NCBI GenBank assembly: GCA_018968805.1
Contig: JAGWZX010000005.1
Location: forward strand, 1 to 13,854
DNA length: 13,854 nucleotides
Reading direction: 5' to 3'
Source of the DNA: Patescibacteria group bacterium
GTDB lineage: Bacteria > Patescibacteriota > Minisyncoccia > Phycocordibacterales > SIBU01
Shown here: positions 4,101 through 12,043 of the stretch, one piece after another
Layout: every line of letters starts with the position of its first letter
Position numbering within the stretch: the first letter of the stretch is position 1
Notes under the pieces: generated by a model
What the model was told of the DNA's origin: nothing
Databases searched by the model: none
What the model saw: only the letters and a program-made list of their open reading frames with translations
Made by a program: the position numbers and the translations under genes

Positions 4101-6449
4101 TTATTTTTTCCATTGCCAATTTTCCACCTCCGGCATGTCCGCCCCGAACTCGCGGATGTATTTAGTATGCTCCGCAAGCTTAGCGCGGTATTTTACCGCC
4201 AACACTTCGGCTTTCGTGGCGCCGAGCACGCCGTTTTTAGCCATTAGTCCAAAAGCTTCAACGGCCAGATGCCAGCGGCTGGTTTCGTTGCGGACCTGCA
4301 TATCAAACGGTGTTGTCGTCGAACCGTTTTCAATGTAACCGTGCACGCTGAATCGCTCATCGTAACCTTTTTCGAAAAGCGCCTGTTTGACCACCTGCGG
4401 ATAACCGTGAAAATTGAAAATGACCGGCCGACTTTCCGTAAAGTAATCATTGAGATTGACAGGCACGCGGCATTCATCGTTGCCAAAACCCAACACGGAG
4501 AGTTCCATCACGTTCACGAAGCGCGCTTTGATTTCCGGCGCTTCGCGCTTGACTATATCAAGCGCGGCCAGCGCTTCCTTGGTGAGATAGTCGCCGGCCG
4601 CGGCAAATACGATGTCCGGATTTTTATCGCTCGCGAATTCCCAGGTCATAATGCCGGTTGCAAATTCTTTATCGGCAAGCGCGGGAGTAAGCCAGCGCGG
4701 TTCCAAAGTTTTTCCGGCCACAATCACATTGATTCGGTTTCGCGATTCAAGGGTGTGTTTGAGCACGGTGAGCGTGCTGTTGCCGTCCGGCGGGAAATAG
4801 ACTTTGACAAAACAGCCGGGCTTTTGGAGAAGCGAACCGATGAAGCCCGGGTTTTGGTGGGAAAAACCGTTGTGCTCCTGCCGCCAACCCGAGGAAGTCA
4901 GAATGTAATTGAGCGACGGGATGGCGCCGCGCCACGAAACTTCCGAAGCGCCTTTCAAAAATTTCAAATACTGATCGGCCATACTGCCGACGATCTGAAT
5001 GAATGCTTCGTAAGACGCGAACACGCCGTGCCGACCGGTCAAAACATAACCTTGCAGGAGACCTTGCAAACTATGTTCGGAAAGCATTTCCATGACTCGG
5101 CCGTCGGGCGCAAGATCTCTGTCCCACGGCATTTTTTCCAAAACGAACGCCCGGCTGGTTTGCGAAAAAACGGCGTCAAGCTTGTTAGAGTAAGCTTCAT
5201 CCGGCGACATCAGGCGGAAATTTTTATTTTTGCCGTTCAGTTTGAATACCTCCTCTAAAAACAATCCGGCGCGGCGCATACTGCTTGAACCGATGGTACC
5301 CGGCACGGCCGCGTCTTCGGAAAACTGCTCGGCCGAAGGCAACTCAAGCGGCGTCACGGCTTTGCCTCCGAAAGTATGTTTACTCATGCCCATACGAAAT
5401 TCCGGCGGCGGCACAAGAGACTTAATATCCGCGCAAAATCCCCCACCTTCCTCGTTGAACAACTCTTCAAACTTGTAACTCTTAAGCCAATCGGACACGG
5501 CGGAAAGCTCCTCGCGGTCAGTTTTGGCATTGGTCGCCACCACTTGATGAGCCAAACAATTGCCTTCGATTTTCTGGCCGTGCAACTCTTTGATGCCGGT
5601 CCAGCCTTTCGGCGTTTTGAGAACGATCATGGGCAACCGCCAGCCGCCGGGCGGCAATTTTCCGCCGGCGCGCGCCGACTTCTGGATAGCCCTGATTGAA
5701 CCGCGGCACTTCTCAAGTGTCTCCATCATGGTTCCGTACACAGAATCGTCTTCGCCTTCAACGATATGCGGCTCATAACCGTAGCCCGTAAAAAGCGCTT
5801 TGAGGTCGGCGTTGGTCATCCGGCCGAAAACGGTGGGGCCGGAAATTTTGTAGCCGTTCAAATGAAGAATCGGCAAAACCACGCCATTCGCCGCCGGATC
5901 AATAAATTTATGAAGGTGCCAAGCGGTTGCGGTTGGCCCTGTTTCCGCTTCGCCGTCACCGACAAGGCAGACAGCGATCAAATCGGGATTATCCAAAACC
6001 GCGCCGGAAGCCGTAGAAAGGGAGTAACCCAATTCCCCGCCCTCGAGAATGACACCCGGCGTACCGGGATTGCTATGACTTGGAAAACCGTACGGCCAAC
6101 TGAAATTTTTGGCGATGTAGGCAATACCCGCTTCGGTCAGTTTGGCCTCGGGATAGAATTTTTCAAGCGTGCCCTCCAAAAAAAGATTGGCTTGCAAAGC
6201 GGGAAAACCGTGGCCGGGGCCGAGCACGAAAAGCATTTCTTGTCCGTGCTTTTTGATAAGCCAGTTGAGATTGGCGTAGATAAAGTTGATGCCCGGGCTA
6301 GTGCCCCAGTGGCCCAGGAGACGCGGCTTGATGTCGGTAAAAACGAGCGGCCGCGCGCCAAGGACGTTGTCCTGTAGATAAATTTGCGCCGCCGTAAGGT
6401 AATTCGCCGCCCGGACGTACTTTTTAATTCGCTCTATCGAGTCGGTCAT
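4101..6449 (-). CDS. xfp: xylulose-5-phosphate/fructose-6-phosphate phosphoketolase
   Basis: Phosphoketolase is a thiamine-diphosphate enzyme that splits xylulose 5-phosphate (or fructose 6-phosphate) with phosphate to acetyl phosphate and an aldose phosphate. At 782 residues it has family length. Motifs seen in order are GPGHGFPALQANLFLEG (usual GPGHGGP, with Phe for the second Gly), FPSHSNPGTPGVILEGGELG, the cofactor motif GDGEAETGPTATAWHLHKF, LHLNGYKISGPT, SGWRQEHNGFSHQNPGF and ENGSTTTPFDMQVRNETSRW. The start ATG 6449 lies 8 nt after a TAAAAT box; the upstream GTG 6467 would precede that box and is less likely. It is followed directly by ackA, giving a two-gene acetyl-phosphate/ATP module. 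The PaaX/Cas2-like gene ends 36 nt upstream. Cytoplasmic. Confidence 0.96.
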   Translation of the reverse strand: MTDSIERIKKYVRAANYLTAAQIYLQDNVLGARPLVFTDIKPRLLGHWGTSPGINFIYANLNWLIKKHGQEMLFVLGPGHGFPALQANLFLEGTLEKFYPEAKLTEAGIAYIAKNFSWPYGFPSHSNPGTPGVILEGGELGYSLSTASGAVLDNPDLIAVCLVGDGEAETGPTATAWHLHKFIDPAANGVVLPILHLNGYKISGPTVFGRMTNADLKALFTGYGYEPHIVEGEDDSVYGTMMETLEKCRGSIRAIQKSARAGGKLPPGGWRLPMIVLKTPKGWTGIKELHGQKIEGNCLAHQVVATNAKTDREELSAVSDWLKSYKFEELFNEEGGGFCADIKSLVPPPEFRMGMSKHTFGGKAVTPLELPSAEQFSEDAAVPGTIGSSSMRRAGLFLEEVFKLNGKNKNFRLMSPDEAYSNKLDAVFSQTSRAFVLEKMPWDRDLAPDGRVMEMLSEHSLQGLLQGYVLTGRHGVFASYEAFIQIVGSMADQYLKFLKGASEVSWRGAIPSLNYILTSSGWRQEHNGFSHQNPGFIGSLLQKPGCFVKVYFPPDGNSTLTVLKHTLESRNRINVIVAGKTLEPRWLTPALADKEFATGIMTWEFASDKNPDIVFAAAGDYLTKEALAALDIVKREAPEIKARFVNVMELSVLGFGNDECRVPVNLNDYFTESRPVIFNFHGYPQVVKQALFEKGYDERFSVHGYIENGSTTTPFDMQVRNETSRWHLAVEAFGLMAKNGVLGATKAEVLAVKYRAKLAEHTKYIREFGADMPEVENWQWKK

Positions 6450-6457
6450 TGGCAAGT

Positions 6458-6487
6458 ATTTTAACACAAAAAGGTTAGCGTTGTCCT
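6458..6487 (-). promoter_or_regulatory. possible leaderless promoter of xfp-ackA
   Basis: On the minus strand TAAAAT (6458-6463) ends 8 nt before the xfp ATG at 6449. AGGACA (6482-6487) lies 18 nt upstream of it and matches the -35 consensus at four positions. The -35 overlaps the last codons of the regulator gene. The spacing fits the short-leader pattern seen at other genes in this window. Xfp may also be transcribed from the regulator promoter. Confidence 0.45.
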
Positions 6488-7064
6488 AGACCGAGCGTGC
6501 CGGCAAGCTAAATGCTGACCTCAAAGAAGTATCGCTCTCAATTTCTTCCACAATTAAATAAAGCATCTCGTTACCAAGTCTAAAATCCTTTTTCAACAGC
6601 GCCATAAAATCCTCACAATCGTACGGATAAATCCAAACGCTGTCCTGAAGTCTAAAAAAACCGACCGCGGCCAGAGATCGTCTCAATCTGTCTCTTTGCG
6701 GCCGCCAGCTTTCCCTGACATCAAAAATCAAGACGCGCCATTTCCCGTCCCACTTCTTCGGTTTCTTAATTTTTGTCCCACCTTCCGTGAGCATTTTAAG
6801 CGTCAAACGACCCTTATCAGAAATCTCAAGAAAACCGTCCTTCCTAACCAAAAGTCCTTGTTGTATCAATCTCTCGTAAGTTCTTTTGATTAATTCTTTC
6901 CGTCTTTTATACGGCTTGATGCCAAATGACTTAAGCACCTGGAGCGTATTCGGAGCGACCAGAGCCACGCTCAAAATACCCGCGCCGGCGATTGTTCCCA
7001 AAACCGCCTTCTTCAAAGCTTCTTTTCTCAATCTCTTCCTTGCTCTGACCTCCAATTCCCCCAT
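6486..7064 (-). CDS. PaaX-like regulator with Cas2-like C-terminal domain
   Basis: The 192-residue protein has a basic N-terminus (residues 1-20), a hydrophobic stretch (about 21-44), a winged-helix-like part (about 50-92, ending in LEISDKGRLTLKML) and a C-terminal ferredoxin-like Cas2/PaaX domain starting at KWDGKWRVLIFDV (about 104-116) with DSVWIYPYDCEDF at about 141-153 and LYLIVEEIE near 168-176. Proteins of this build are common in CPR genomes and are often labelled Cas2, but there is no CRISPR array or other cas gene here. A transcriptional regulator role like PaaX is the better inference. Its ATG lies within a long palindromic promoter/operator (7061-7102) that recurs twice in the window, which suggests autoregulation. 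It is immediately upstream of xfp-ackA and may control them. The hydrophobic stretch could be a buried helix or a membrane anchor. Confidence 0.8.
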   Translation of the reverse strand: MGELEVRARKRLRKEALKKAVLGTIAGAGILSVALVAPNTLQVLKSFGIKPYKRRKELIKRTYERLIQQGLLVRKDGFLEISDKGRLTLKMLTEGGTKIKKPKKWDGKWRVLIFDVRESWRPQRDRLRRSLAAVGFFRLQDSVWIYPYDCEDFMALLKKDFRLGNEMLYLIVEEIESDTSLRSAFSLPARSV

Positions 7065-7102
7065 ACACCAATTATATCCTATAGGAAATTATAAGTGTAT
7101 GA
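7061..7102 (-). promoter_or_regulatory. palindromic promoter/operator, copy C (regulator start)
   Basis: On the minus strand ATACACTTAT (7091-7100) and ATTGGTGTAT (7063-7072) form an inverted repeat with an 18-nt spacer. The exact midpoint carries a second perfect palindrome, TCCTATAGGA (7077-7086). TATAAT (7071-7076) overlaps the inner edge of the downstream arm and ends 6 nt before the regulator ATG at 7064. The 42-nt site matches copy A at 31 positions with no gap. It is most simply an autoregulatory operator over a leaderless promoter; the binding protein is inferred, not shown. Confidence 0.65.
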
Positions 7103-7171
7103 TTAAAAACACAATAAATAGAGATGTTGAGCGTTTACTATCGTAATATCGTTTAACTATGATCTAACAGC

Positions 7172-7213
7172 CAATACACCAATAATTCACGGTCGGATAT
7201 AATTGGTGTATAA
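7172..7213 (+). promoter_or_regulatory. palindromic promoter/operator, copy A
   Basis: ATACACCAAT (7174-7183) and ATTGGTGTAT (7202-7211) are perfect 10-bp inverted arms separated by 18 nt. TATAAT (7198-7203) overlaps the second arm on the plus strand, as in copies B and C, but the position of the ATG reads ATA here. No plus-strand gene follows, so it would drive transcription antisense to the broken Nudix gene or be a relic. The 174-bp gap 7065-7238 holds only copies C and A plus the hairpin at 7208. Confidence 0.6.
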
Positions 7214-7226
7214 ATTTTATACACTC
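7208..7226. repeat. 8-bp inverted repeat sharing a half-site with operator copy A
   Basis: GTGTATAA (7208-7215), ATT, TTATACAC (7219-7226) is a perfect inverted repeat. Its left arm reuses the GTGTAT of operator copy A, so the core hexamer ATACAC/GTGTAT occurs three times within 53 bp. It may be an extra protein half-site; it lacks a T-run expected of a terminator. Confidence 0.5.
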
Positions 7227-7238
7227 TAAATGCAGAGC

Positions 7239-7625
7239 TTACAATTCTAATGCTTTCAGGTTTTCATTTAATCCTTTTGCCGTATCGTATGAATCAAGAT
7301 CTTTGGCGTCTATCCACTCGTAAGTATCGTGGTCGGCTTGAACCATTGTAACCATCTCATTGTTAGATTCAAACAAAAACGGATGAATGAGCCAGTCTCC
7401 ATACCGATCCGATATTGAAAAATCATCCCCCTTCTTTACAAACTTAGCCGGCAAGCCGGTCTCTTTCAAAACTTGCGCCTTGGCTTAATTTTCTAAACTT
7501 CCATTCCCACTCAAAAATCCCGAAATAAATTCCCACTTCCCCGGATCAAAATGCTTATTATTTCTGCGCTTTAAAATAAGAACCCTCTTCCCGCATCTTA
7601 AGACTGTGACCGTAATTTCTTTCAT
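7239..7625 (-). pseudogene. Nudix family gene interrupted by an in-frame TAA
   Basis: From ATG 7625 the frame encodes MKEITVTVLRCGKRVLILKR and continues through FDPGKWEFISGFLSGNGSLEN (about residues 26-46), then meets TAA at 7485-7487. The same frame continues AKAQVLKETGLPAKF and on to HPFLFES, HDTYEWIDAKDL and YDTAKGLNENLKAL, which is the expected second half of a Nudix protein. Joined, it is a full-length 127-residue domain with a single nonsense codon and no frameshift. The Nudix box is also decayed: the conserved residues read G-X5-G-X7-A-Q-V-L-K-E-T-G, losing the first Glu, the Arg and two other Glu positions. The ATG overlaps the phosphatase stop as ATGA, confirming the original start and coupling. 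A TTG at 7469 could restart a fragment of 76 residues, which would lack the substrate-binding strands. A sequencing error at the TAA cannot be excluded, but the decayed box argues for true loss of hydrolase activity. Confidence 0.8.
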
Positions 7626-8161
7626 TGAGAATTCTTCAATTCGTAAACCCAGCCCGGCTGCCAATGCCAGGGCGCGGTTGCAGCTTCTTTAAGAGGAACG
7701 TGGTTAATTAAATTTTCCAGAGCGTATTGGGTGGCACGGTGACCGATAATCATTACTGTTTTACCGTCATAATTTTTGGCCAAATCGTCAAGAAAACTTT
7801 TCATCCTCTCTGTCGTCTGATTGTAACTTTCGCCATTGGGAAAAGGCGTGCTCACCCTGTTTGCCTTCTCTGCTTTCTGTTGCTCTTCACGACGCCTTGT
7901 AAAATCGCCGTAATCGCACTCGCGAAGCCGCTCGTCTGTGATTATCGGAACACTGTCGCCAAAAGCAAGTTCCGCCGTATGATATGAACGCTTCAAATCC
8001 GAACAGAAAACCACGGCGGGCTTTTCGCCACCATATCGCTCGCCCAATTCCCTCGCCTGCCGTTCGCCCAAAGGCGACAGATCAACATCAAAAAGCCCGG
8101 AGGCCAATCCGTCCTCATTGTCAAAAGTCGTCCCGTGCGCTTCAAAAATTATTTTGATCAC
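7622..8161 (-). CDS. histidine phosphatase superfamily protein (AHG variant)
   Basis: The 179-residue protein belongs to the phosphoglycerate-mutase-like His phosphatase fold. The catalytic motif is at the very N-terminus: IIFEAHGTTFDNE, where His9 is kept but the usual RHG is AHG. Other family features are the core region LSPLGERQARELGERY, CSDLKRSYHTAE with Arg and the Ser-Asp-Leu typical of the fold, RECDYGDF, FPNGESY, and the second histidine in IGHRATQYALE (His141). The C-terminus is WHWQPGWVYELKN. I recall a family with the same EAHGTT motif in CPR and some other bacteria, so the Arg loss is probably a family trait. The substrate is unknown. GTG 8161 is chosen because TACAAT lies 6 nt upstream and the domain begins at once; starts further up (8197, 8245) add sequence without similarity. 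Its stop overlaps the Nudix start. Confidence 0.85.
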   Translation of the reverse strand: MIKIIFEAHGTTFDNEDGLASGLFDVDLSPLGERQARELGERYGGEKPAVVFCSDLKRSYHTAELAFGDSVPIITDERLRECDYGDFTRRREEQQKAEKANRVSTPFPNGESYNQTTERMKSFLDDLAKNYDGKTVMIIGHRATQYALENLINHVPLKEAATAPWHWQPGWVYELKNSQ

Positions 8162-8167
8162 TTGAAA

Positions 8168-8173
8168 ATTGTA
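8168..8173 (-). promoter_or_regulatory. possible -10 box of a leaderless phosphatase promoter
   Basis: TACAAT on the minus strand ends 6 nt before the GTG start at 8161, the same distance as in operator copies B and C. No good -35 is visible at 16-18 nt (best TGGTGA). It lies just downstream of the terminator at 8198-8228, which is where a promoter is needed. Confidence 0.35.
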
Positions 8174-8197
8174 CCGCGAACGGCAATTATTCACCAT

Positions 8198-8228
8198 AAA
8201 AGAAAAAACGCGGACCTTGCGGAACGCG
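8198..8228 (-). terminator. intrinsic terminator after the aminotransferase
   Basis: On the minus strand CGCG, TT, CC, loop GCAA, GG, TC, CGCG forms a hairpin with a 2x2 internal loop and a GNRA-type tetraloop, followed by a T-run of six plus four more Ts after one C. It begins 20 nt after the aminotransferase stop and separates the PLP-enzyme operon from the phosphatase gene. Confidence 0.6.
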
Positions 8229-8248
8229 ATCTGATTGAAGAACAAGAT

Positions 8249-9586
8249 TCAGAACACGAATTTCACGGACTTGAGGCGCCTGACGGTCTCGTCAATGACC
8301 GCCTCTTCCGATGCCAAACCGCATTCGGGAACCGGCCGGAGCGTTACCGCCCAGCGCAACCACTGGCCGCCCGCCGCTTCGGCGTGCATAACCGAGATTC
8401 GGAGATAATCGCGCAGGAACTTCGCGCAGTCAGCGGCATCCTGGAAGATGACACCCTCGGGACTGGCAGTGATTGACTTCGGCGACGGCGTGAACTGGCA
8501 GAGGCCGGCGTCGGGCACGTGACCCTGGAAACCGGCCTCACGGAGACCGGACGCGAGTTTTTCGTGGAGAACCAGATAGCGGCGTCTGGTTTCCTCGGCA
8601 AACTCGGGATAACGGAGGCAAGACAGCCCGGAAACGATACTCGGGCCGAACATACCCGAGTCTTTCACGTCCATCACCTTGCGGAGCGCCTTGATGACCG
8701 TCGGATGCGCCGCTATCCAACCGAAACGGAGTCCTGTGGCATTCCAGCCCTTGGAAACGCTCTGGAGAACAATGCAACATTCCTCCCAACCCGGCACGGA
8801 TAGTACCGAAACCAGGTCGTCGAGGTATCGCAGGTCAATGTAGGCTTCGTCCACCACAAGCGTCACGCCGTACTGGCAAGCCCAGCCGATCAAGAATTCC
8901 CAATCGGATTTGGTATATCCCCTCCCTGTCGGGTTATGGGGAATATTGACGTACACAACCGGACGCGGGCCTGGCCTGCCGCGAACAATATCCGTCAGTT
9001 TGTCGGCATCAAACGACCATTGCCCGCTTAGGCGAACTAGCGGAACGTCAATCAGAATCGCAACACGCCGATTCATCGGACTGGCGATGACCTGGTAGCT
9101 CGGACTCGGGAACAAAAGCGTGGTGCCGTCGCCGAGAAGAAGCGTCGGTATGTACTCGGCAAGCGCCCGCTTTATTGAACCGGGCGAGTACTGAATCCAC
9201 TCCGGCGTCAAACTCCGGCCGCCCGGAAGAGCAACTTGATGCCGAGCATGGATCAATTCGGCAAGCATCGCGTGAGTGTCGCCCTGCATGATAGTCCCGG
9301 GAGTCGCGCGCGTGCCGGCAATATCCTTGTACCGGCTGGCGTCCCAAGCTTCGTAGAAATATTCCTCACCGACTTCCCAAGCTGTCTCGGGCATCTTCCA
9401 GGTCGGATCGGCCACCGATAGTTTGAGAAGCGCCGATTCCGGTCTGCCCGGATTGTTCGCCTTTTCCAACTCACGCTCTTCGGCCAAAACCGCGCTGAAC
9501 GAGTAGCCGCCGCCCGGGGTATCAAACTCGCGGCCGCCAATCCGCTCGGCGAATCGGGAACGCCATGTTTCATTCGTGGTATTCAT
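8249..9586 (-). CDS. class I/II PLP-dependent aminotransferase
   Basis: This 445-residue protein is a fold-type I aminotransferase. Motifs are NIPHNPTGRGY with the cofactor-contacting Asn, VVDEAYIDLRY with the Asp that pairs with the pyridine nitrogen and the following Tyr, and SVSKGWNATGLRFGW, where SVSK contains the Schiff-base Lys and GLRFGW the phosphate-binding Arg. Near the C-terminus MHAEAAGGQWLRWAV holds the Arg expected to bind the substrate carboxylate. The overall pattern is closest to the LL-diaminopimelate/aspartate aminotransferase group, but the substrate is not certain. It starts 18 nt after the decarboxylase stop, with GAAAGGAAAA ahead, and the two form an operon ended by the terminator at 8198. 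Composition is unusual for the window: about 32 Arg against 16 Lys. It could take part in lysine or diaminopimelate metabolism or in a small specialised pathway. Confidence 0.88.
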   Translation of the reverse strand: MNTTNETWRSRFAERIGGREFDTPGGGYSFSAVLAEERELEKANNPGRPESALLKLSVADPTWKMPETAWEVGEEYFYEAWDASRYKDIAGTRATPGTIMQGDTHAMLAELIHARHQVALPGGRSLTPEWIQYSPGSIKRALAEYIPTLLLGDGTTLLFPSPSYQVIASPMNRRVAILIDVPLVRLSGQWSFDADKLTDIVRGRPGPRPVVYVNIPHNPTGRGYTKSDWEFLIGWACQYGVTLVVDEAYIDLRYLDDLVSVLSVPGWEECCIVLQSVSKGWNATGLRFGWIAAHPTVIKALRKVMDVKDSGMFGPSIVSGLSCLRYPEFAEETRRRYLVLHEKLASGLREAGFQGHVPDAGLCQFTPSPKSITASPEGVIFQDAADCAKFLRDYLRISVMHAEAAGGQWLRWAVTLRPVPECGLASEEAVIDETVRRLKSVKFVF

Positions 9587-9604
9587 AGTTGTTTCGTTTT
9601 CCTT

Positions 9605-10876
9605 TCAGTTTATCCGGATTGTTTTTGGTTCGTGGTTAAGCGTAGCGTCCAAGTCCCCAATGGTCTCGGCGCGGCGAATCAGTTCCGCTTCTTTTCCGCC
9701 CTGCCGGAGCATTACTTCCTGCGGCCGTGTCGTGCCGTTGTAGTTGAAGCACATCACGATGCCGTGAGCGCCGGCGTCCTGTACAAGAACCGTGTCGCCG
9801 ATGCGAATGACCGGCAGAAGCCGGCCTGTGGCAAGGCGGTCAATGTTCTCGCAAATCTGACCGACGAGATTGACCCGCTCTTTCCTCTGCCGACGTTCCG
9901 CTCCGACAACCTTGGCATGATGGTACGACCCGTACATACCGTGGCGCATGAGGCCGTTCATGCCGACATCCAACCCGACATGAATCTGGTAAATGTCTTT
10001 GCGATTGATGGCGCTTGCCACCAAAACGCCGAACGGCCCCGTCATCCAACGGCCCATTTCCGTCCAAAGCGCCGGCGCGTAGCCGTGCTCATGTTTGAAC
10101 TCGGCCAAAACTGCGGCAAGCCGCTCGCCGACTTCGGCCATGTCCAACTCACGCTGTTTCGGCCGGTAGGGAATGCCGAAGCCGCCGCCGATGTCCGCGA
10201 AGTCAACGGGAATGCCCGTCGCCCGCTCCGCGATAGTTGCGGCCTTAAGAATAAGGCGCAGGACATTGATGAAGTAATCCGGCTCCAAGCAATTGGAACC
10301 GATCATCATGTGGATGCCGAAGTGTCTGGCGCCGCACGCTTTGGCGCGGCTATAGGCGGAAGCGAGCTCCTCCCACATAATGCCGTACTTCTGCTCCCAG
10401 GGTTTGCCGAATGACTGCAATCCGACCCTTGGTCCGGCGATGCGCCGGCCGGGATTGAGCCGGAAACAAATCATTTCTGGAAATTCCCGGACCTTGCCGA
10501 TGAGACTAATGTCGTCAAGGTTGATAATGCCGCCGAGGTGGTTCGCCTCGTCAAACCATTCGCGCCGGCTGTTGTTGGAGGTAAGGATGAACCGGCCCTG
10601 GGCGCCGATTTGTTCCATGAGATGCATCTCGTACATGGAACTGCAGTCAAAACCGAAGCCCATGGATTGCTGGAGACGCAGATTGGCGGGATTGTTCCAA
10701 GCTTTGACGGCGTACCATTGCCGGTAACCGGGGACATCGCGCATGTAGTGCTTTAGCGCCGCTCCCCGCTCCAATATACCCTGCTCGTCATAGACATAAC
10801 AGGGTGTGCCGAATTCCGAAAGAATTGCCGGGAGGGCCCGTTCAATGCGGGCCAGACTGCTTTTTGGTGTTGGCAT
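9605..10876 (-). CDS. PLP-dependent decarboxylase, LysA/ornithine decarboxylase family
   Basis: The 423-residue protein has the fold-type III decarboxylase architecture. WYAVKAWNNP (near residues 53-62) contains the cofactor Lys; HMMIGSN corresponds to the HxHIGS loop but with Met for the second His; DIGGGFGIPY is the glycine-rich phosphate-binding loop; EMGRWMTGPFGVL replaces the usual EPGR; CENIDRL carries the active-site Cys and Asp of the CESxD motif; and DAGAHGIVMCFNYNG matches GAYxxxxxxYNG with His for Tyr. It is thus a divergent LysA relative; diaminopimelate is plausible but other amino-acid substrates cannot be excluded. ATG 10876 is chosen because AGGAGG lies 5 nt upstream. An in-frame GTG at 10942 would extend it by 22 residues through the leader hairpin and is rejected. 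The protein is Arg-rich (roughly 2.5 Arg per Lys). The aminotransferase follows 18 nt downstream. Confidence 0.88.
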   Translation of the reverse strand: MPTPKSSLARIERALPAILSEFGTPCYVYDEQGILERGAALKHYMRDVPGYRQWYAVKAWNNPANLRLQQSMGFGFDCSSMYEMHLMEQIGAQGRFILTSNNSRREWFDEANHLGGIINLDDISLIGKVREFPEMICFRLNPGRRIAGPRVGLQSFGKPWEQKYGIMWEELASAYSRAKACGARHFGIHMMIGSNCLEPDYFINVLRLILKAATIAERATGIPVDFADIGGGFGIPYRPKQRELDMAEVGERLAAVLAEFKHEHGYAPALWTEMGRWMTGPFGVLVASAINRKDIYQIHVGLDVGMNGLMRHGMYGSYHHAKVVGAERRQRKERVNLVGQICENIDRLATGRLLPVIRIGDTVLVQDAGAHGIVMCFNYNGTTRPQEVMLRQGGKEAELIRRAETIGDLDATLNHEPKTIRIN

Positions 10877-10881
10877 GTTTG

Positions 10882-10887
10882 CCTCCT
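10882..10887 (-). promoter_or_regulatory. consensus ribosome binding site of the decarboxylase
   Basis: AGGAGG on the minus strand, 5 nt before ATG 10876. It is the strongest Shine-Dalgarno in the window and decides the start. It contrasts with the leaderless look of most other first genes here. Confidence 0.8.
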
Positions 10888-10930
10888 GTTTTTCGTTTTT
10901 GTGTTTATTGGTGCTGAATTGACAAGGACG

Positions 10931-10948
10931 GCCGCCGGCCACGGCGGC
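10931..10948 (-). promoter_or_regulatory. GC-only hairpin in the decarboxylase leader
   Basis: GCCGCC and GGCGGC form a 6-bp all-GC stem with a 6-nt loop in the roughly 95-nt leader between the promoter and the AGGAGG. There is no T-run, so it is not an intrinsic terminator. It may protect the mRNA or act in translational control; the leader is too short for a classical lysine riboswitch. Confidence 0.45.
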
Positions 10949-10979
10949 TCAAAGAGATGTTTCCTTGAATCCGGCGCTA

Positions 10980-11007
10980 ATACTACAAATAATCAGGCTC
11001 AAGTCAA
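10980..11007 (-). promoter_or_regulatory. promoter of the decarboxylase-aminotransferase operon
   Basis: On the minus strand TTGACT (11002-11007, five of six consensus bases), a 16-nt spacer and TAGTAT (10980-10985, four of six). It lies 104 nt before the decarboxylase ATG and 24 nt after the end of the DUF1653 gene, so the PLP pair has its own transcript with a real leader. Confidence 0.55.
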
Positions 11008-11030
11008 CACAAGCCAATCTTGGGACATTC

Positions 11031-11297
11031 TTATTTTCTTGAAAATGTCAGAATGTCATTTCGGTTCGGGAGAAATTTAAATCGGGGAGCTTTTTTGCCG
11101 GCCACTGTCACCTTCTCCGTAAACATCGCGGGCGGCCGCACCCACATTTTGCCGCGCGAACCAAGCTCTCGGTACACCACCATTTGTTCAAGTGTCTCGC
11201 TGTGTTTTGCCACGCCAAGTACTTCGTACTCTCTGCCTTTGAAGTGTCTATAAATTCCTGTTTTCAAACTTCGCAATGACCGTCCGTTATGTGTCAT
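11031..11297 (-). CDS. DUF1653 domain protein
   Basis: The 88-residue protein contains the small DUF1653 domain: GIYRHFKGREYEVLGVAKH (about residues 14-32), SETLEQMVVYREL, then KMWVRPPAMFTEKV (near residues 50-63), followed by a short tail. The domain is a compact all-beta fold of unknown function found widely in bacteria as a stand-alone protein. The ATG at 11297 lies 21 nt after the hicA stop with no Shine-Dalgarno; a TTG at residue 11 (LKTGIYRHF) would begin just before the conserved domain and is a reasonable alternative. It is probably the third gene of the hicBA transcript. Nothing suggests a functional link to the toxin. Confidence 0.8.
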   Translation of the reverse strand: MTHNGRSLRSLKTGIYRHFKGREYEVLGVAKHSETLEQMVVYRELGSRGKMWVRPPAMFTEKVTVAGKKAPRFKFLPNRNDILTFSRK

Positions 11298-11318
11298 AGA
11301 GTTGTATTGACGGAAACG

Positions 11319-11513
11319 TCATTTCTTGCGAATAACAGACACCCCCAAATCTTTGCAAATCTTCACCGCAAGAAAATCATTTATCTCGTTATGCCGCGGA
11401 ACAGTGGAGGTAAATTCTTCTCTTGGATTCAAAAACACGGAGTGCTTTTTACCTTCACGCACTAAAAGACACCCCTCCTTGTAAAGGTGGCGGACTAAAT
11501 TAATCCTTTTCAC
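11319..11513 (-). CDS. hicA: HicA-type mRNA interferase toxin
   Basis: From GTG 11513 the protein has 64 residues, the normal HicA size. It has the double-stranded-RNA-binding-like fold pattern: VKRINLVRHLYKEGCLLVRE, then GKKHSVFLNP with the catalytic His, VPRHNEINDFLAVKICKDLGV and a basic end. HicA toxins cleave mRNA and are held inactive by HicB, encoded here just upstream. The GTG lies 10 nt after the hicB stop with no ribosome site, so coupling to hicB is likely. An upstream in-frame start at 11609 would overlap hicB by 86 nt with unrelated sequence and is rejected. FTSTVPRHNE, where the family usually has a Lys/Gly-rich turn, is mildly divergent. Confidence 0.85.
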   Translation of the reverse strand: MKRINLVRHLYKEGCLLVREGKKHSVFLNPREEFTSTVPRHNEINDFLAVKICKDLGVSVIRKK

Positions 11514-11523
11514 GAAAGAAGAA

Positions 11524-11745
11524 CTACGCCGGGATAACGACTTGAATAGATTCCCGACGCGAATCCACTCCCCTGCCTTTCGCAAGACTGCGGTTGGTTT
11601 CAAGCACAAGCTGTAATGCTTCTTTTAGATTTTCTCGCGCTTCTTTGGTCGTTCGTCCTTGAGTATTGACCCCTGGTACCTCTTCAATCCACGCAACAAC
11701 ATGTTTTCCCAACTTTTGATATACGGCTGTAAATTCTCGCTTCAT
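11524..11745 (-). CDS. hicB: HicB-type antitoxin
   Basis: The 73-residue protein has the partial RNase H-like HicB fold: FTAVYQKLGKHVVAWIEEVPGVNTQGRT (about residues 5-32), then KEARENLKEALQLVLETNR. It is the short form with no C-terminal DNA-binding domain, so autoregulation, if any, needs another protein or the toxin-antitoxin complex. It is the first gene of the pair, as usual when the promoter serves antitoxin before toxin. TATAGT ends 9 nt upstream of the ATG, so the mRNA should be leaderless or nearly so. It neutralises HicA by binding. Confidence 0.87.
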   Translation of the reverse strand: MKREFTAVYQKLGKHVVAWIEEVPGVNTQGRTTKEARENLKEALQLVLETNRSLAKGRGVDSRRESIQVVIPA

Positions 11746-11754
11746 AGTACATCC

Positions 11755-11782
11755 ACTATAACATTTTGAGACCTAAAATCAA
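11755..11782 (-). promoter_or_regulatory. promoter of hicBA, probably leaderless
   Basis: On the minus strand TTGATT (11777-11782), a 16-nt spacer and TATAGT (11755-11760, five of six). The -10 ends 9 nt before the hicB ATG at 11745. A better-looking TTGACG just upstream has no -10 at a proper distance. Confidence 0.55.
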
Positions 11783-11795
11783 TTCCGCCGTCAAG

Positions 11796-11811
11796 CGCGT
11801 TTAATAACGCG
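11796..11811. repeat. 16-bp palindrome between hicBA promoter and operator copy B
   Basis: CGCGTT (11796-11801), TAAT, AACGCG (11806-11811) is a perfect inverted repeat. It sits 13 nt outside the hicB -35 and 2 nt from operator copy B, so it lies between two divergent promoters. It may be a toxin-antitoxin operator; without a T-run it is not a terminator. Confidence 0.45.
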
Positions 11812-11813
11812 GA

Positions 11814-11855
11814 CAATACACCAATGATTCACGGTCGTATATTATTGATGTATGA
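11814..11855 (+). promoter_or_regulatory. palindromic promoter/operator, copy B
   Basis: ATACACCAAT (11816-11825) and ATTGATGTAT (11844-11853) are 10-bp arms with one mismatch and the same 18-nt spacing as copies A and C. TATTAT (11840-11845) overlaps the second arm and lies 6 nt before an ATG at 11852, exactly the geometry of the regulator start. The 42 nt match copy A at 37 positions in the same orientation. The downstream frame (66 codons) runs into palindromic repeats and does not look like a protein. Confidence 0.6.
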
Positions 11856-11943: not shown

Positions 11944-11960
11944 ATCGGGGAAGCTTTGTC

Positions 11961-11991
11961 GGACAGGAGCGAGCTCCGCTCGCTCCTGTCC
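11961..11991. repeat. perfect hairpin repeat, 14-bp arms
   Basis: GGACAGGAGCGAGC (11961-11974), TCC, GCTCGCTCCTGTCC (11978-11991). The arms are perfectly complementary with a 3-nt loop. No T-run follows on either strand, so it is a dispersed palindromic repeat (REP-like) and not a terminator. Confidence 0.7.
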
Positions 11992-11996
11992 ATTAG

Positions 11997-12043
11997 GCGG
12001 CCATTCATCCCCGCCCGCCAAGCGGGCGGGGATGAATGGCCGC
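11997..12043. repeat. perfect hairpin repeat, 22-bp arms
   Basis: A 22-nt arm (11997-12018, starting GCGGCCATTCATCCCC) is perfectly complementary to 12022-12043 around the 3-nt loop CAA. ATTAG (11992-11996) and CTAAT (12049-12053) extend the symmetry after a short bulge. No T-run follows. The size and perfection suggest recent insertion of a dispersed palindromic element. The truncated reading frame on the minus strand passes straight through it. Confidence 0.75.

Follow-up and report, generated by a model that had tools for sequence, protein, structure and literature searches.

A family of genes encoding PaaX/Cas2-like proteins is bracketed by cognate palindromes of ~40 bp, and like palindromes are scattered between genes in the same genomes. 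Three such palindromes (copies A, B and C) occur in the window, the entire 13,854-nt stretch that was analyzed (contig JAGWZX010000005.1, assembly GCA_018968805.1, Patescibacteria group bacterium; Table 1). REP palindromes are known as partners of Y1 transposases (RAYTs), and we propose, with a probability of roughly 0.6, that A, B and C represent a palindrome-protein module in which a REP/RAYT-like unit is combined with a PaaX-type autorepressor.

Table 1. Palindromes and associated features in the window
Feature	Position	Strand	Context
Copy C, 40-bp palindrome, core CTATAG	7061-7102	-	covers the Cas2-like gene's promoter and its start codon
-10 box TATAAT	7071-7076	-	downstream arm of C; 6 nt, then ATG of the gene at 7064
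Cas2-like gene (192-aa winged-helix and PaaX_M/Cas2-like protein)	6486-7064	-	PF20803 match; putative binder
Copy A, solo palindrome, core CGGTCG	7172-7213	+	69 bp from C
Copy B, solo palindrome, core CGGTCG	11814-11855	+	upstream of hicB-like gene

The three copies are real and lie beyond chance. A preliminary description of this DNA had placed them at the positions and on the strands given in Table 1, with ungapped identities over 42 nt of 37 (A/B) and 31 (A/C), and these values were verified; B and C agree at 28 positions, A and C have the 17-nt arm GGATATAATTGGTGTAT in common, and A and B share the same orientation. Also correct was the report of a -10 box in each copy, followed after 6 nt by an ATG in B and C: A and C contain TATAAT and B contains TATTAT (5/6), with the ATG after B opening a 66-codon frame that has no Pfam match, and with no ATG directly after the box in A. 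All three copies are near-palindromic at the centre as well, and the core common to A and B differs from that of C, two points that had been missed. The motif ATACAC-N26-GTGTAT occurs at two places in the window (A and C), as compared with none in 200 dinucleotide shuffles, and the suggested search for it throughout the assembly (645 kb, 71% complete; spacers of 24-28) recovered the places of A and C only. A DNA similarity search of the same assembly with A returned B at E 7e-10 and C at E 2e-4, the remaining matches being two of 14 nt at E 0.69. An unfiltered scan of the window with a covariance model built from 57 sequences, A, B and C among them, returned these copies at E 7e-7 to 2e-5 (better strand) and the next best at 0.69; searching the copies' own genome gave seven rows, of which A, B and C on two strands would account for six.

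Like palindromes accompany homologues of the Cas2-like gene. Using a weight matrix, and setting the threshold by the 99% level in 1,944 background windows that came from these loci themselves, we found a ~40-bp palindrome upstream of the gene in 78 of 80 relatives, downstream in 72 and on both sides in 72; no downstream palindrome of the window's own gene was found with this matrix, a point against the module. One further downstream copy (L056) sits in the background list, where it was counted because a frameshift had ended the predicted gene early. As the matrix had been trained on the tested loci, a sequence-independent test requiring at least 15 of 18 complementary pairs was run on 30 loci, five of which are also among the 80 and one of which is that of the window. 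Palindromes were detected on some side in 25 of these loci (the AT-rich site of L045 may be due to chance) and on both sides in 16, versus 0 of 144 background windows, and the signal reaches homologues of 30-35% identity. Within a locus, the upstream and downstream copies have 32.4 of 40 positions in common, as compared with 19.3 between loci, and the own-locus partner ranks first for 57 of the 72 flanking pairs.

Several properties of the upstream copies are those of an operator. Forty-six of the 78 are placed like C, abutting the ATG to within 2 nt, and among these 46 a -10 box of 5/6 or better lies in the same arm in 28 and in the opposite arm in 8; the spacing at C suggests that its mRNA is leaderless. 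Dyad symmetry is highest in the outer half-sites and at the centre and lowest mid-arm, and palindrome similarity correlates with protein similarity (Mantel r 0.41, p 0.0005; 72 loci). The 38-bp ATACAC-N26-GTGTAT element over the gene's own -10, a candidate binding site, has the geometry of the E. coli PaaX site, given in PMC9493321 as TGATTC(N27)GAATCA. The upstream copies of the homologues thus bear out the earlier view that an operator-like palindrome, C, overlies the promoter from which the PaaX/Cas2-like gene is read; the shared geometry and the correlation favor the product of this gene as the best candidate binder. The placement, symmetry, correlation and geometry would also fit a plain PaaX-type transcription factor, with C as an autoregulatory operator, a second, looping operator, and a regulon including A and B, all of them being nothing more than binding sites that arose by ordinary mutation and selection. 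We consider this rather unlikely, since the paired downstream copies have no promoter function in view and since the scattered copies, described below, behave differently.

The window protein matches PF20803 (PaaX_M) at E 4e-20 (72.1 bits, cut-off 24) and scores below the cut-offs of both the PaaX model TIGR02277 (33.5 bits versus 264.55) and the cas2 model TIGR01573 (20.9 bits versus 24.5). At E 1 or better, each of the 32 aligned homologues matches both the PaaX and the cas2 model. Its predicted structure contains winged-helix helices and a wing at 54-93; no Pfam winged-helix match to the window protein was obtained at E 1 or better. Alignment of the predicted Cas2-like domain with E. coli PaaX and Cas2 chains gives middling Z. 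We take the likeness to Cas2 to reside in a ferredoxin-like domain that has an S-V-[WF] motif and whose first strand ends in an Asp. This residue, D115, presumably equivalent to the conserved first-strand Asp of Cas2, is invariant (Asp in 111 of 111 non-gap rows). Because PaaX chain 8a39 has Glu at this position (chain 3kfw has Thr), an acidic residue alone does not mean nuclease activity.

The protein therefore resembles PaaX in carrying a PaaX_M domain after a winged helix (the wing as predicted), and is unlike PaaX in its length (192 aa), ending after the Cas2-like domain, in failing the TIGR02277 cut-off and in the family's Asp at D115; the gene family is further distinguished by its two-sided flanking, by the presence of several paralogues in one genome and by its scattered sites. 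With Cas2 and VapD the family shares the ferredoxin-like domain, the conserved Asp and the S-V-[WF] motif, and all 32 members match the cas2 model weakly; it is set apart from them by the fusion to a winged helix and, for the window protein, by the subthreshold score. Unlike Cas2, it has no partner Cas1 in any of the 19 palindrome-positive genomes (Cas1 is present in 4 of 60 genomes overall). A Pfam scan of the 32 family members gave no match to Y1_Tnp, and the translation of the window protein contains no histidine.

Scattered copies, or solos, were sought with a palindrome model (R1) in a genome search under strict filters. Among the matches listed, R1 is represented in 16 of 23 protein-positive and 3 of 37 protein-negative genomes (Fisher p 1e-6). 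The seven protein-positive genomes with no R1 match among the matches listed, and the three palindrome-positive genomes with no Cas2-like protein match, count against the module, with the qualification that some of the seven do have flanking palindromes missed by R1. Palindromes outnumber genes in two genomes: G421 has 34 places (E 0.3 or better) versus 6 gene matches and G239 has 18 places versus 5 gene matches, gene-flanking palindromes being included in these counts. Across seven genomes, 52 of 61 solos best match a gene of their own genome, a figure that stood at 46 before a missing G426 gene was added (the comparison was first run with part of the G426 genes, and four were added later); the nine with no better home match lie in G379 (two sites of L135, L214, L216 and L217), G421 (L167 and L168), G239 (L187) and G407 (L205). 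Two G421 genes have seven and six solos, respectively. Whole solo sequences of 36-40 bp recur near-identically within one genome, which argues against individually selected PaaX-type operators.

The solos are without promoter preference. Among 73 of them, 45 lie in tandem, 12 in convergent, 10 in divergent and 4 in edge contexts and 2 inside genes, as compared with 46 tandem, 9 convergent and 14 divergent among 69 palindrome-free intergenic gaps; about six of the 73 rows are gene-flanking or outside the family (L188, three of L201, L193 at 1033 and L135 at 1457), and once these are taken out manually, 12 of the remaining 67 are convergent. The near-equal convergent shares (12/73 and 9/69) and the widely varying distance to the next gene also speak against a PaaX-type regulon. 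The proposal that A and B are operators of other promoters found no support. According to the preliminary description, its circuit would be refuted if the motif were dispersed with no link to promoters or PaaX/Cas2-like genes; as found here, scattered copies show no promoter preference, but they do accompany the PaaX/Cas2-like gene. An extension of the circuit to xfp-ackA (gene names from that description) found no support, as neither protein matches any of the 295 proteins encoded nearest to the 80 homologues. No palindrome separates the Cas2-like gene from the xfp frame (6350-6500 scanned), and because this frame follows closely on the same strand, its co-transcription from C is possible.

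A search of G421 with half-arms, free of selection for symmetry, yielded 19 hits, comprising nine complete palindromes and one lone half, and the arms are identical in eight of the nine, although the copies differ from one another. Among 40 copies from seven subfamilies, a set that includes a few gene-flanking copies, there are 25 matched double changes, 14 one-arm changes and 2 others; one-arm changes outnumber matched ones in G381_L057 (5 to 2), G426 (5 to 4) and G239_L241 (1 to 0), which counts against concerted change. R1 favors symmetric copies, a bias that weakens the matched-change argument, and selection for a two-fold binding site also predicts symmetric change, more slowly. In all three doubly anchored syntenic gaps, the solo is absent from the congener, a difference between orthologous gaps that sits poorly with a PaaX-type regulon: the palindromes at G381 sites 2 and 3 are missing from G379, and that at the G379 C4 site is missing from G381. 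Site 1 of G381, with a single anchor, was left out of this count; site 3 has only the left anchor in G380, and for the G379 site the window's genome provides just a 20-nt match as right anchor. The congener comparisons, in which aligned stretches are mostly ~63-79% identical, gave no base-exact empty site. At one compared site the loss extends beyond the palindrome to a gene judged by eye to be NUDIX-like.

In view of the flanking, cognacy, lack of promoter preference, matched changes and absent syntenic copies, our preferred reading makes C an operator-promoter for autoregulation, with A and B being copies that have dispersed. A dimer of the protein would bind its own palindrome, with winged helices on the two outer half-sites, which are separated by some three turns of the helix, and with central contacts; on the upstream copy, here C, it would cover the -10 and the start of the leaderless message and thereby repress itself. 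Such binding and autorepression are likely, and C is probably an autoregulatory operator. It is fairly probable that A and B represent this palindrome in dispersed form and do not act as operators of their neighbours. The palindromes may multiply via a folded-back state (hairpin or cruciform), to which we give even odds and which would explain the matched changes in both arms; that the protein, with its invariant Cas2-type Asp, takes part in this multiplication is a more tentative suggestion. Binding, autorepression and mobilization by the protein are all inferred here from sequence comparisons.

REP/RAYT systems (REPtrons, TnpA-REP), as described in PMC2817692 and PMC8266576, comprise a gene bracketed by two palindromes, with cognate ones between genes, and several gene lineages per genome, each with its own palindrome, whose symmetry is kept by matched changes. 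The Cas2-like family shares the bracketing (72/80 loci; the window's gene lacks the downstream copy), the scattered cognates, the multiple lineages with palindromes of their own and the matched arm changes. It differs in that the protein is winged-helix and Cas2-like, without a Y1 (HUH) domain; the palindromes, ~40 bp long, keep their symmetry almost to the centre; in 72 loci the two flanking copies are direct (36), inverted (16) or tied (20), whereas flanking REPs are always inverted; the copy upstream also acts as promoter; and copy numbers in the searched genomes reach tens at most. No GTAG-type tetranucleotide head was seen by eye in the 16-nt flanks of 66 listed sites, a few of them gene-flanking.

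It is improbable that Y1 (RAYT-type) transposases encoded in these genomes mobilize the scattered palindromes in trans as REPs, with the Cas2-like gene a passenger using them as operators. Y1_Tnp is found in 18 of 19 palindrome-positive versus 21 of 41 palindrome-negative genomes (p 0.001), including all three with palindromes but no Cas2-like match, and R1 matches occur in 15 of 18 protein-positive genomes with Y1 versus 1 of 5 without. Yet among Y1-positive genomes the palindromes track the Cas2-like protein (15/18 versus 3/21, p 2e-5), the bracketed genes are the Cas2-like ones, none of 25 Y1 genes (in 9 of 18 double-positive genomes) lies within 1 kb of an R1 site among the sites listed, solos are present in G379 (99% complete), which gave no Y1 match, and no GTAG-type head was seen by eye beside solos. 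The notion of bidirectional transcription terminators or other RNA hairpins, prompted by near-perfect 40-50-bp inverted repeats, some between convergent genes, can be set aside as extremely improbable, given that a run-out of five or more T within 8 nt is found after only 9 of 46 solos (counting either end) and after 7 of 72 downstream copies, that G-U pairs are rare within arms and the symmetry therefore resides at the DNA level, and that gene-specific sequence and a promoter-overlapping copy would go unexplained.

The module reading can be extended, as a possibility that we hold tentatively, to a REPtron-like mobile system in which a PaaX-like winged helix joined to a Cas2-fold nuclease, unrelated to known transposases, propagates its own ~40-bp palindromes via a folded-back intermediate without Cas1 or HUH, and controls itself through one of them, with up to about ten versions per genome of separate specificities. 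A Cas2-like gene with scattered cognate palindromes is an arrangement otherwise known from an unrelated mobile-DNA enzyme, and a second unrelated protein with the REP/RAYT genomic signature would suggest that this lifestyle arose twice. The family offers dozens of protein-palindrome pairs with distinct sequences from the very small genomes of tiny uncultured bacteria, in which gene regulation and mobile DNA are poorly known. It would also tie the Cas2 fold outside CRISPR to palindrome recognition, with a bearing on the route by which Cas2 entered spacer acquisition.

Of the three palindromes of about 40 bp in the window, copy C is best read as the putative operator-promoter of the Cas2-like gene itself, and copies A and B as putative scattered copies of that gene's palindrome. 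All three lie exactly where the preliminary description placed them, and its ungapped match counts among them proved correct on recount. The window contains the motif ATACAC-N26-GTGTAT twice, whereas none of 200 shuffles contains it; all centres are near-symmetric (CTATAG in C, CGGTCG in A and B), and A and C have a 17-nt arm in common. A search of the organism's own 645-kb assembly (71% complete) for similarity to copy A recovered B and C, but nothing else above chance. From the positions of its TATAAT and ATG, transcription from copy C would begin at about the start codon of the Cas2-like gene. The ATG reported to follow copy B is present, but the frame it opens is only 66 codons long and has no Pfam family.

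Palindromes and adjoining features of the window
Feature	Position	Strand	Basis
Copy A	7172-7213	+	sequence
Copy B	11814-11855	+	sequence
Copy C	7061-7102	-	sequence
TATAAT of copy C	7076-7071	-	sequence
ATG of Cas2-like gene	7064-7062	-	sequence
Short frame beside copy A, resembling NUDIX C-terminal part	7239-7469		by eye; no Pfam match
Adjoining aminotransferase and Orn/DAP/Arg-type decarboxylase genes	8249-10942	same strand	
HicA-like and HicB-like (UPF0150) genes adjoining copy B, then a DUF1653 gene	11319-11745 (Hic pair)		HicA-like slightly below Pfam cut-off
GC-rich inverted repeats beyond copy B, probably another repeat type	11960-11992; 11998-12042		weak covariance-model matches (E 9.7; 0.69)

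The proposed tie between a promoter palindrome and the Cas2-like gene was borne out in its homologues. In a weight-matrix scan of 80 loci from named genomes (the best 80 of 472 confirmed relatives), an upstream palindrome was found in 78 and a downstream one in 72, scoring above the 99% level set by 1,944 background windows; the rough consensus is cATACAcnAAnnnTACGCTATAGCGTAnnnTTngTGTATg. The end of the 40-mer coincides exactly with the start codon in 41 of the 78 upstream palindromes and lies within 2 nt of it in 46. A -10 element of at least 5/6 occupies the downstream arm in 28 of 46 ATG-abutting copies, versus 8 of 46 at the mirror position. Because the matrix had been trained on the scanned loci, palindromicity alone was assessed separately in 30 loci: at least 15 of 18 complementary pairs were present on some side in 25 and on both sides in 16, and in none of 144 background windows. 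Loci that pass this test extend to homologues of 30-35% identity, whose cores are, for example, CCTAGG or CATATG.

The window gene has no downstream palindrome in the matrix scan of its locus; on that side the frame previously called xfp lies close by, in the same orientation as the gene. The suggestion that the circuit extends to xfp-ackA found no counterpart, as neither protein had a match among the 295 proteins encoded nearest to the 80 homologues, nor, by tblastn, in the remaining loci examined. Another locus, L082 (2964-5149), has three like palindromes in series around its Cas2-like gene and a pair resembling, by eye, thymidylate synthase/dihydrofolate reductase; some of its neighbour genes are common to related loci L057, L064, L073 and L074.

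Upstream and downstream copies of one locus agree at 32.4 of 40 positions, and copies from different loci at 19.3; palindrome similarity tracks protein similarity (r 0.41, p 0.0005, 72 loci). Dyad symmetry peaks in columns 3-10 and at the centre and is lower in columns 11-16, and few G-U pairs occur within the arms, which argues for a dyad in the DNA and against an RNA stem. For PaaX, autorepression and the site TGATTC(N27)GAATCA are described (PMC9493321); PMC2770484 concerns a TetR-type regulator. Among the literature matches listed, mostly outside subscription papers and bioRxiv, no title or abstract opening reported this protein-palindrome association.

Similar palindromes are also scattered away from the gene (solos). 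R1, a covariance model built from 57 palindromes, has matches in 19 of 60 relatives: 16 of 23 genomes with the Cas2-like protein versus 3 of 37 without. With gene-flanking places counted in, one genome (G421) has 34 matched places at E <=0.3 and six gene matches, and another (G239) 18 and five. Nearly all solos are intergenic, with near-perfect symmetry to 19 bp on each side. Of 73 solo rows, 45 are tandem, 12 convergent, 10 divergent, four at contig edges and two inside predicted genes, compared with 46 tandem, nine convergent and 14 divergent palindrome-free gaps; about six rows are gene-flanking or outside the family, and without them the convergent share is 12 of 67. Two G421 solos (L171 and L172) are part of a longer inverted duplicate (324 bp, 78% identity).

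Three solos of G381, a congener of the window's genome, were compared with congeners. At site 3, two anchors are separated by 136 nt with the palindrome and, in the congener G379, by 59 nt without it; at site 2, G379 lacks both the palindrome and the adjoining NUDIX-like gene (646 versus 117 nt); site 1 has a single anchor. Conversely, one G379 solo is absent from the same gap of G381 (133 bp between genes) and from the window's genome (30-bp gap; right anchor weaker). All three doubly anchored comparisons thus differ, with boundaries that are not base-exact. The NUDIX-like gene (L246, 9111-9593) came or went together with its solo. In the pairs L061/L083, L063/L101 and L089/L120, the palindrome-gene unit is flipped or on the other side amid common neighbours, which suggests inversion or independent insertion.

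Y1 transposases may help to move the palindromes: they are present in 18 of the 19 palindrome-positive genomes, and among protein-positive genomes R1 matches occur in 15 of 18 with Y1 versus 1 of 5 without. However, none of 25 Y1 genes checked (in nine of those 18 genomes) has a listed R1 site within 1 kb, solos occur in G379, which gave no Y1 match, and among Y1-positive genomes palindromes still track the Cas2-like protein (15/18 versus 3/21, p 2e-5). Y1 transposase-type genes occur in 39 of the 60 relatives, many of them in open frames some 220-250 aa long. No palindrome-positive genome (0 of 19) has Cas1.

A search of G421 with one 18-nt half-arm (up to three mismatches, no selection for symmetry) gave 19 matches: one isolated half, and the rest paired into nine whole palindromes, of which two flank genes. 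In eight of the nine the two arms are identical, even though each arm varies by one to three bases from copy to copy. The 40 copies compared, from seven subfamilies, show matched double changes 25 times, one-arm changes 14 times and other changes twice; one-arm changes outnumber matched ones in three of the subfamilies, all small. This points either to copying between the arms via a folded-back state or to strong and rapid selection for symmetry. REP palindromes are described as behaving alike in matched arm change (PMC2817692), and traits of RAYT and REP are treated there and in PMC8266576.

The best match of a solo is a gene-flanking palindrome of its own genome in 46 of 61 cases, rising to 52 once a missing gene of G426 is added. 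Four genes of G421 are matched by seven, six, three and one solos. By these sequence affinities, the Cas2-like genes each have their own set of palindromes.
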